DNA of 64,000 bases from Acidobacteriota bacterium (lineage in GTDB: Bacteria; Acidobacteriota; Terriglobia; UBA7540). This document shows, one piece after another, positions 3,947-9,591 of the stretch; the first letter of the stretch is position 1, and each line of letters begins with the position of its first letter. Under the pieces are notes generated by a model. That model saw only the letters and a list, made by a program, of their open reading frames with translations. It ran no database searches and was not told the DNA's origin. The position numbers and the translations under genes are program-made. Where the stretch lies: NCBI GenBank assembly GCA_021828285.1, contig JAKASG010000003.1:1-64000 (forward strand). The letters are read 5' to 3'.

Positions 3947-4588
3947 TCAATCGAGACCGGGCGCAACGAAGGTCACACCGCGCGCGGCGTTGGCGCGGCG
4001 CGTGGCGGCCAGATCGAGCGCGCTGAGCGGAATCTTCCGTGTCACCTCGCCTTGAAACACCCAGAGCGTTCCGCCGAGGACGGCGTAATTCTGGATGGTG
4101 GCTCGATGGCCATTGCGGAAGACCAAAGTGGTGGGGAGAAGTTTTTGGGGCGGCGCAGGCGGCGGAGCGGGCGCCTGGGTCTGAAAATTATCGGCTTCTG
4201 AACGCTGTTGCCGAAGGTAATCCACTTCATCCGACAAGTGCTGCACGGCCGTTGCGAGTTGAATATTTACAAGTTCATTCGATTGCTGCGGGGGCGAGTA
4301 TTCGACAGGCCGGTCATAGCCGTTGCCGTAATTATAAACTTGGCCGCCCGCCGTATCGAACCAGCCCACCTGCACGTAGGCCGGAGTGAAGCAGAAAGGG
4401 CAATAGAAGCCGCCGAATCCGCCAACGGGACCGCGCCTCGGAAACCAAGTTTGCACCGGAGAGGCGTGGCCGAAGGGGGCGGGCGCGGGCATCGGTTGAA
4501 ATTGCGCAAACGCAGGTTGAGAAGTGATGAGAGATCCGGCCAGCACGAAGCCGGATATGACCGCCGGGATGGCGATCAATCGCCTCAT
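3947..4588 (-). CDS. Exported protein of unknown function with coiled coil
   Basis: Not recognised as a named family. The 213-residue product has a clear signal peptide (MRRL, then a hydrophobic stretch ending near QPAFA-QF, residues 1-28). It continues with a Pro/Gly/Phe-rich section containing a YCPFC motif, a short helical, probably coiled-coil stretch (about 115-133, VQHLSDEVDYLRQQR), a proline-rich linker (APAPPPAPPQ) and a C-terminal beta-rich part (about 150-200, TTLVFRNGHRATIQNYAVLGGTLWVF). The latter resembles small domains common in Acidobacteriota exported proteins. It faces the response regulator convergently and lies downstream of korAB with a gap of about 60 bases. Confidence 0.7.
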   Translation of the reverse strand: MRRLIAIPAVISGFVLAGSLITSQPAFAQFQPMPAPAPFGHASPVQTWFPRRGPVGGFGGFYCPFCFTPAYVQVGWFDTAGGQVYNYGNGYDRPVEYSPPQQSNELVNIQLATAVQHLSDEVDYLRQQRSEADNFQTQAPAPPPAPPQKLLPTTLVFRNGHRATIQNYAVLGGTLWVFQGEVTRKIPLSALDLAATRRANAARGVTFVAPGLD

Positions 4589-7922: not shown

Positions 7923-7981
7923 GGGGACCGTGGGCAATGGTGTAGAAAAAACTCTTGACTCAGGAGGCATAAGCAGCTAGG

Positions 7982-8039
7982 CTCTCCTTCGAGCGGGCGG
8001 CAGGTTGGCGCCCGCCATCCCGAAGATATCGAAGGAGAG
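7982..8039 (+). promoter_or_regulatory. Hairpin that buries the ribosome-binding site of the 64-residue peptide gene
   Basis: CTCTCCTTCGA (7982-7992) is a perfect 11-base complement of TCGAAGGAGAG (8029-8039), and the second arm contains the AAGGAGAG Shine-Dalgarno of the GTG start at 8044. Between the arms lies a second perfect 7-base stem, GCGGGCG (7993-7999) with CGCCCGC (8009-8015). Folded RNA would hide the ribosome site. Whether it acts as a thermometer, a ligand- or protein-controlled switch, or a DNA operator is not known. Confidence 0.6.
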
Positions 8040-8043
8040 TTCC

Positions 8044-8238
8044 GTGAAAAATTATATCTTGACGTTTGTGTTGGCAGTGTTCGTGGTCTTGGTTGCATTT
8101 TCACTGAAACAGAAGCTGACTTCGGCCACGCCAGCGCAAGGCAATACGCAGGTGATGGCACTGGGAAGTTTCCCGCCACCGTTACCGCCTGCCGTAAATC
8201 TAGGCAGCTTTCCCCCGCCGCTACCGCCGACTCGATAG
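8044..8238 (+). CDS. Small membrane-anchored peptide with duplicated LGSFPPPLPP
   Basis: A 64-residue product from a GTG at 8044, chosen because AAGGAGAG ends 4 bases upstream; the in-frame extension to 8005 would lie inside the hairpin. Residues 4-21 are a strongly hydrophobic helix after MKNY, either a membrane anchor or an uncleaved signal. A polar linker (22-39) is followed by two copies of the decapeptide LGSFPPPLPP at 40-49 and 53-62, ending in TR. The two copies differ at 8 of 10 codons, all synonymously, which argues that the peptide sequence itself is selected. No known family is recognised. It is followed 63 bases later by a 7-TM protein gene. A secreted or displayed signalling/ligand peptide is a hypothesis. 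Confidence 0.72.
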   Translation: MKNYILTFVLAVFVVLVAFSLKQKLTSATPAQGNTQVMALGSFPPPLPPAVNLGSFPPPLPPTR

Positions 8239-8301: not shown

Positions 8302-9045
8302 ATGCTTCATCAACTCCTCGGCTATCCCATCGGCTACATCGGCCTCCTGTTGGAAGCTATCCTTCCGGTTTACATCGTGTGGAAGCGGCTGCTTAAAGGA
8401 CTGGAGGGGGTCGCAGCGTATCTGCTCGTTCTCGCGATCGCTGACGGCCTGAGGGCGGGTGTGGTCCACGCTTTCGGCTTTTCCTCGCCTCAGTACGCTT
8501 ACGCGTACTGGCTTCCAGATTTCGGGATCGAGATCGCGGTTTTCCTGGTGGTCTCCGCATTCTTCCGTCGCGCTGCAAGCGGCCGGCCCGAACTTTTGAA
8601 ACAACTGCGGTTCCTGCTGGGAACGGTGTTCGTACTCGTCATCGGCATTTCATCGTTCGTCCTGTTCCAAAACTACGACCGCCTCTTCACCCGCTTCATC
8701 ATCGAATTCAACCAGAACCTCTATTTCACCTGCCTCGTTCTCACAACCCTCCTCTATCTCATGCTCGTGCAGATCAAAAGCGAAGATGAGCAATTGGTGC
8801 TTTTCGTATCCGGCCTCGGAATATCTTTAGCGGGTCCAGCGGCGTCGTTGGCGCTTTTTCACCTAACTTCCGGCGATGGTTTTGCACGCGCGCTGGTGGG
8901 CTTGACCATTCCGATGTGCAACGTGATCATGCTGGGGATTTGGTTCTATGCCGTCGGGCGTGCGCCGAGGACTGTAGCGAGCGGAATCCCGCTTGCGCGC
9001 GGTAGCAACGACGGAAAAGTGGTATTGGAGGTTTCGAGGGCGTAG
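8302..9045 (+). CDS. Seven-transmembrane protein of unknown function
   Basis: A 247-residue integral membrane protein with seven predicted helices (about 8-27, 37-58, 70-90, 102-122, 138-157, 164-187, 197-218) and a ~28-residue cytoplasmic tail. No enzymatic motif is seen; loops are short and the only longer one is between TM4 and TM5. The ATG at 8302 follows an AAGGA site. It is the middle gene of a three-gene same-strand module with ~63-base gaps on both sides, after the LGSFPPPLPP peptide and before a one-TM protein. The topology fits receptors, sensors or small-molecule transporters. A receptor for the neighbouring peptide is an attractive guess but unproven. Confidence 0.8.
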   Translation: MLHQLLGYPIGYIGLLLEAILPVYIVWKRLLKGLEGVAAYLLVLAIADGLRAGVVHAFGFSSPQYAYAYWLPDFGIEIAVFLVVSAFFRRAASGRPELLKQLRFLLGTVFVLVIGISSFVLFQNYDRLFTRFIIEFNQNLYFTCLVLTTLLYLMLVQIKSEDEQLVLFVSGLGISLAGPAASLALFHLTSGDGFARALVGLTIPMCNVIMLGIWFYAVGRAPRTVASGIPLARGSNDGKVVLEVSRA

Positions 9046-9114
9046 AGTGCGACAGCCGGCTGGCGCTCTCGAGGGCCATGTCCGTGCGGATTCCTTCAGA
9101 GGGGAAGGATGACG

Positions 9115-9591
9115 ATGATTATCTCCACCTTGATTTTGGTTTTTTCGTCGGCCCTGTTGATTTTCTACATGCAGTCGGTGGGCGAGCGGATTCTTGGCCG
9201 GGAATTCGACCGCGAATATTTCCGCTCGATTGTGGCTGCGAACCGGCTGGAATTTCCTTTCGTGAAGGAAGCGGTCGAGCAATTTGACGTGCCCGGTGAT
9301 TACACTCGGTTCCGCATGATGCTAAGGTGCGATTTCCTTGCTTTAACCTATTTGCTCAAGCACACCGCCAACCGCCGCCATCGGTACAGCCTCGAGGATC
9401 GTGTCCTGATTTGGAACTACAAGCTGATCTCGTTTCTGATGTCCGTGCGGCGCGCTTTGGGCCGCGAGGAAAAACCGGCGATGATTCAGTTGACGCGCAT
9501 CCTCCAATATTTCGCGAACGTGCTCGGCAAGCGAGTGAGCGATGCGGGCGCGGGAAGCCTCTTTGGGCCGGATTACCTTCTGGGGCTTTAG
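9115..9591 (+). CDS. One-TM protein of unknown function
   Basis: About 158 residues. Two ATGs (9109, 9115) follow an AGAGGGGAAGG site; 9115 has better spacing. The N-terminal ~20 residues (IISTLILVFSSALLIFYMQS) form one transmembrane helix. The rest is a soluble, helical, Arg/Phe/Tyr-rich cytoplasmic domain with FRMMLRCDFLALTYLLKH and YSLEDRVLIWNYKL. No named family is recognised. It follows the seven-TM gene by about 70 bases on the same strand, and its stop is ~170 bases before the acyl-CoA dehydrogenase start. A membrane-tethered adaptor or effector of the preceding proteins would fit the layout; this is inference. Confidence 0.7.
   Translation: MIISTLILVFSSALLIFYMQSVGERILGREFDREYFRSIVAANRLEFPFVKEAVEQFDVPGDYTRFRMMLRCDFLALTYLLKHTANRRHRYSLEDRVLIWNYKLISFLMSVRRALGREEKPAMIQLTRILQYFANVLGKRVSDAGAGSLFGPDYLLGL

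Follow-up and report, generated by a model that had tools for sequence, protein, structure and literature searches.

A conserved three-gene cassette of Acidobacteriota pairs a proline-rich repeat peptide with a seven-helix membrane protein: a probable peptide signal and its receptor

The locus and its conserved cassette

The window, that is, the whole stretch of 64,000 nucleotides analysed here (contig JAKASG010000003.1 of an Acidobacteriota bacterium), carries a 64-codon gene that the original prediction had described as encoding a membrane peptide with a duplicated decapeptide. Clustering of gene neighbourhoods placed this gene at the head of a cassette, in which the repeat-peptide precursor is followed by a protein with seven transmembrane helices (7TM) and by a helical protein anchored at its N-terminus. 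The features of the locus, in order, are as follows.

7955–7983, forward strand: sigma70-like promoter, read from the sequence (TTGACT at 7955–7960, 17 nt, TAGGCT at 7978–7983)
7980–8041, forward strand: predicted hairpin occluding the Shine–Dalgarno sequence, in which GGCTCTCCTTCG (7980–7991) pairs with CGAAGGAGAGTT (8030–8041) in a single-sequence fold
8032–8037, forward strand: Shine–Dalgarno sequence AAGGAG of the peptide gene; a strong one precedes all order-level homologues
8044–8238, forward strand: peptide precursor gene, 64 codons, with an anchor or signal helix at about codons 1–26, a spacer and two decapeptide repeats
8161–8190, forward strand: repeat copy 1, LGSFPPPLPP, codons 40–49
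8200–8229, forward strand: repeat copy 2, LGSFPPPLPP, codons 53–62, with 8 of 10 codons unlike copy 1 and all residues the same
8302–9045, forward strand: 7TM membrane protein, proposed peptide receptor, 247 aa, with a homologue wherever the peptide occurs among order-level genomes
9109–9591, forward strand: third gene, proposed output or adaptor protein, about 160 aa, present at 35 of 35 order-level loci

The peptide gene starts with GTG behind a good Shine–Dalgarno sequence (AAGGAG) and is translated as VKNYILTFVLAVFVVLVAFSLKQKLTSATPAQGNTQVMALGSFPPPLPPAVNLGSFPPPLPPTR, ending at a stop codon. The repeat, which includes the motif PPPLPP, stands twice around the linker AVN. The claim that 8 of the 10 codons are unlike between its two copies, without any change of residue, was confirmed by translation and by a site count, which gave 8 synonymous changes at 9.0 synonymous sites and none at 21 nonsynonymous sites, and the transmembrane or signal helix expected ahead of the repeats was also borne out.

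Within the window's order, which falls in Acidobacteria subdivision 13 ("Acidobacteria subdivision 13 bacterium RH2", "gp13"), the 7TM gene was found as a single copy in 35 of 40 genomes and in all 18 genomes of good quality. The third gene accompanied it in all 35, and the peptide was present at each of the 33 loci whose contig reaches upstream (28 complete, 5 truncated where the contig ends). Within about 8 kb, no neighbours recurred except the 7TM and third genes, the others being inconstant or housekeeping-like (pyruvate kinase, TonB receptor, vWA protein). At many loci the fourth gene is, as we read its sequence, a pyruvate kinase; it occurred at 13 of 36 loci and was rejected as a member of the cassette. 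At one locus (L030; G012:C242:13466-14170), a single in-frame TGA splits the 7TM frame into two ORFs, which is either a pseudogene or an assembly error.

No significant match to any of the three cassette proteins was found in Pfam or NCBIfam, in keeping with the earlier statement that no known family was recognised for the peptide, or among families of solved structures in a profile search. Rfam gave no match at the locus at the gathering threshold, and a plasmid collection searched with the 7TM protein gave none. The AlphaFold2 model of the 7TM protein (29 sequences) has seven helices, with a pLDDT of 87 and a pTM of 0.81, and the loop charges point to an N-out/C-in topology. The top Foldseek matches in the PDB were GPCRs and a designed GPCR-like fold (E of at least 0.028, TM about 0.5–0.6), a ranking that probably reflects likeness of shape only, because the 7TM entries in the PDB are mostly GPCRs. 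There was no profile match to solved chains at E ≤ 1 and no match to Pfam 7tm; the protein has only a short C-tail, with no fused signalling domain. On this model, we take it as a 7TM bundle in a receptor-like orientation rather than a homologue of GPCRs; alternatively, its role could lie in export or in immunity. The third protein is predicted to consist of one N-terminal transmembrane helix (N-out) and a cytoplasmic helical domain (AlphaFold2 pLDDT 81), and a fold search with it gave no match. A second relative of this protein (E 2e-19) is encoded in the window's genome (L213:4928-5482; contig C2:12951-13370, minus strand), alone, downstream of hisF-like genes, where no 7TM gene was seen nearby. 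This protein may serve as an output partner, or the domain may be employed there for something unrelated. A similar lone relative occurs at L074 (gp13 AA75).

The promoter pattern TTGAC-N16/17-TAGGCT is kept ahead of almost every homologue in the order, and the hairpin over the peptide start site covaries. In an alignment of 26 homologues, 83.2% of cells were paired and seven pairs had double changes, including GC to CG, values that were reached by 0 of 500 shuffles. A similar Shine–Dalgarno hairpin precedes the peptide genes of the family designated f6. In the window (7955–8041), the −10-like TAGGCT lies partly within the 5′ arm of the hairpin; T, A and T of this hexamer are invariant, and its remaining bases covary with the Shine–Dalgarno side. 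The promoter and the hairpin therefore seem to use the same bases, so that either the transcription start would have to be placed farther upstream or the pairing would act at the level of the DNA. In f6 (e.g., L163, L166, and L171), a near-palindrome like GGTGTGTACCGTTTAGACACA is kept approximately 90–110 nt before the peptide start, just upstream of a TTGACA promoter, and may be an operator that a dedicated regulator binds.

Repeat copies within and between species

A direct pattern scan of the genome contigs with the peptide alone gave no match; the peptide is too short and too variable for such a scan, so its partner genes served as bait. A search of the 39 genomes of the window's family yielded clear peptide homologues with tandem repeats in many genera, and the 20-odd homologues of the same architecture in other genera of the family indicate that 8044–8238 is a real coding gene. 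All homologues in the family begin with M(K/R)NYxLtflLAvLVVLasvsLRR and continue with tandem Pro-rich cores that are the same within a protein and different across species, such as IGADPVPLPP in four copies, IGPSPAPIPP in three, and IGGTPPPRPM in three. Further cores in the order are IGGSPMPPIP (four copies), IGGEPVPIPH (four), and IGSAPMPTGK (eight). At least two copies were found in 61 of 74 precursors, and the N-termini were hydrophobic in all of them. Several members have a single copy (e.g., L029, L034, and L174). In genus g11 (L029, L032, L034, and L036), the single copy has a different core, G(P/I)GPxPCPPxC, with two cysteines, and, judging from these sequences, this genus seems to have given up tandem copies for a single peptide, possibly closed by a disulfide.

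When neighbouring copies were compared in the 61 repeat-bearing precursors, there were 633 synonymous differences at 1524 sites versus 84 nonsynonymous differences at 4062 sites (pS 0.415 versus pN 0.021); the repeat regions were picked by amino-acid similarity, which lowers pN and leaves pS unaffected. At the codon level, the copies are, by this pS, either old or saturated. Neither recent duplication nor gene conversion was accepted as the origin of the identical copies, given the 8 of 10 differing codons in the window and the general pS of 0.42, and the proposal that selection keeps the repeat sequence was upheld on the same grounds.

The cores are conserved copy by copy, with 98.8% identity within proteins, whereas the linkers are 75% identical. 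Between species, core identity was 61% in the window's order and 56% in f6, with 42 distinct cores among 47 proteins. The earlier claim that the peptide sequence itself is kept is thus true of the copies inside one protein and does not extend to comparisons between species. Because the cores are the same within and different between species, the copies must match something that is common to a cell line and changes between lineages, and the 7TM protein fits this description. The turnover of the cores between species is in step with the 7TM protein: in partial Mantel tests, which remove common ancestry incompletely, the repeats correlated with the 7TM protein given the third gene (r = 0.40, P = 0.00025; a smaller first pass agrees), and the value for the repeats and the third gene given the 7TM protein was r = −0.16.

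Relatives across the class

The 7TM profile had matches in 134 of 399 genomes of the class, and upstream of distant 7TM relatives there were small ORFs that share this design and have 1–20 copies of repeats unrelated in sequence. Their cores include ANGSAPVPPVPWK in three copies, NTSSPVPVTPW in four, and HGGAPIPPIPF in three, the last without any linker. In Bryobacteraceae-like genomes (the family label is inferred), signal-peptide-like N-termini are followed by ISPLPPPDPWGDGL in eight to nine copies, IGPTLPPNPWDEGPPKLT in six, HGPVRPPGGGTNIVA in five, or AAGPWPFPDDSAGGNI in three, and about 20 copies of GPMTPAPTPPGPTFA occur in a 6.8-Mb genome made up of one contig. Elsewhere, many f6 members have one K or one R as the linker; VVG, or no linker (L135), also occurs. 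In Acidobacteriaceae-like genomes (f10, label likewise inferred), the 7TM gene is multi-copy. Genomes with several 7TM genes have one peptide per gene: in one Acidobacteriaceae-like genome, each of seven 7TM genes has its own different small Pro-rich peptide of the secreted type 190–310 bp upstream. These peptides are mostly single copy with an AxA-type N-terminus, such as ...TTVWA|DGPVPLCVPGKPCANR, where the cleavage point is our reading. The label "membrane peptide" is therefore probably too narrow, because the Bryobacteraceae-like and Acidobacteriaceae-like N-termini resemble a cleavable signal peptide. The first description of the gene was also incomplete, in that the gene is one of three in a cassette that also encodes a 7TM protein, and its family is phylum-wide.

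An automatic filter (small ORF, Shine–Dalgarno sequence, hydrophobic start, Pro-rich tail) was positive upstream of 78 of 97 7TM genes in the class versus 3 of 440 control ORFs, one of which lies partly antisense to a peptide repeat, and at 0 of 4 7TM genes from other classes. No repeat peptide was found near the 7TM relatives L146, L153, L154, L157, L204, and L206, or near those in other classes of the phylum (L207–L210), indicating that 7TM proteins of the broad family do not always come with a peptide partner. The third gene varies as well. In f6 it encodes an approximately 135-aa protein, some members of which match the window's family at E about 1e-4 (in hhalign, E 0.002 but probability 14). 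In f10 it encodes an N-anchored protein of 127–217 aa similar to the window's, and the Bryobacteraceae-like loci are without it.

A proposed peptide signal, its alternatives and known systems

The reading that we ranked first, and consider rather probable on the sequence evidence, is that the cassette encodes a secreted multi-copy peptide signal and its cognate 7TM receptor, in a design like that of the fungal α-factor. The gene at 8044–8238 would encode the precursor of a short extracytoplasmic Pro-rich signal, present as two identical copies with a disposable linker between them. The precursor would be exported by the Sec pathway, and proteases would excise the cores from the variable linkers. 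The peptide would then bind the adjoining 7TM protein (8302–9045) from outside as its ligand, and the membrane-anchored third protein (9109–9591) would relay the signal inside the cell.

The rival ranked next, which we regard as unlikely, is that the small protein stays in the membrane as a tethered structural or regulatory subunit, comparable to the small subunits of membrane complexes, with its Pro-rich repeats forming polyproline helices outside as a binding site for several 7TM molecules or for a component of the envelope. The peptide is always co-encoded with the 7TM protein, and in the window's order the N-terminal sequence is the best-conserved part of the precursor and positive residues (K/R) flank the helix on both sides. 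No tool predicted a cleavage site in the anchor of the window's family, and, given these flanking charges, the peptide may indeed stay tethered there. However, the Bryobacteraceae-like and Acidobacteriaceae-like members look secreted, with 1–20 copies of unrelated repeats, and linkers that vary between cores that do not are better suited to units cut from a precursor.

The pairing of one peptide with each membrane protein, their co-divergence, and the multiple different pairs in one genome would also be consistent with a bacteriocin or contact toxin and its cognate 7TM immunity protein. Bacteriocin loci are patchy, whereas this cassette is near-universal and single-copy in the order; there was no match to a bacteriocin family (TIGR01654 only at E 0.74), and no export or maturation genes were conserved beside the cassette, all of which makes this explanation improbable. 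Still less probable is a multi-core RiPP precursor with chemically modified copies: a leader followed by identical cores is the layout of such precursors, but no RiPP modification enzyme was conserved within about 8 kb, where only the 7TM and third genes recur. Least probable of all is a regulatory leader or arrest peptide (SecM-like, with stalling at PPP) controlling translation of the 7TM gene, because, despite the position just upstream of that gene, the N-terminal hydrophobic helix, the PPPLPP motif and the hairpin over the Shine–Dalgarno sequence, only 16 of 74 precursors contain PPP, arrest does not need identical tandem copies with synonymous divergence, and an arrest site would not vary by species.

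If the peptide-signal reading is correct, the cassette would represent a new kind of bacterial cell–cell communication, whose peptide code is built in and whose 7TM protein is dedicated to it, and would provide orthogonal peptide–receptor pairs for engineering. In soil, Acidobacteriota rank with the commonest bacteria, and no peptide signalling is described for them in the literature searched. That search, with subscription papers and preprints outside its scope, found no description of such a system, and an earlier description is possible. More tentatively, the family may be a phylum-wide Acidobacteriota counterpart of fungal mating-pheromone signalling, in which each precursor, with as many as about 20 identical copies of a secreted peptide, would have a dedicated GPCR-like 7TM receptor to read it and an N-anchored, cytoplasmic-facing output protein, with lineage-specific codes and several orthogonal pairs per cell. 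The paralogous pairs and the turnover of the repeats would make receptor–ligand co-evolution directly measurable.

Among known systems, bacterial peptide quorum sensing (Agr, ComQXPA, and RRNPP/Phr) is similar in that a small precursor, encoded next to its partner, gives rise to a short peptide. The cassette differs in its tandem identical copies and in its partner, a stand-alone 7TM protein, and it lacks a histidine kinase, an AgrB-type processing protease, and a TPR receptor. No AgrB-like membrane protease or AgrC-like kinase was found at the locus, where the 7TM and third proteins have no Pfam or NCBIfam match, nor was any conserved TPR protein; no kinase, sigma factor, or regulator was found in the cassette. 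Multi-core RiPP precursors, such as those of cyanobactins, share the leader and the repeated identical cores, but here the N-terminus is hydrophobic and of the export type, and there are no modification enzymes nearby. Bacterial 7TM receptors, as far as described in the available text on 7TMR-DISM in RgsP (PMC6107284) and on the LytS-type 7TM in BtsS (PMC10653868), share the seven helices and the N-out/C-in topology; unlike 7TMR-DISM, 7TMR-HD, and LytS, the cassette protein has no fused extracytoplasmic or cytoplasmic signalling domain and no Pfam match.

The closest likeness in design is to fungal precursors of the alpha-factor type and KEX2-processed repeat proteins, which, in the available text of PMC6339444, have an N-terminal secretion signal and near-identical short repeats with spacers between them, and to the GPCRs of fungal pheromones, in that of PMC6265332. 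The cassette is bacterial, has no sequence relation to these and no G protein, has linkers (K, R, VVG, AVN, or none) in place of KR/RR Kex2 sites between its repeats, and holds the peptide, 7TM, and third genes together in one operon-like unit. What the two have in common, to the extent of those texts, is a secretion-type N-terminus, identical or near-identical repeats with spacers, a 7TM partner, and repeats that are specific to the species.
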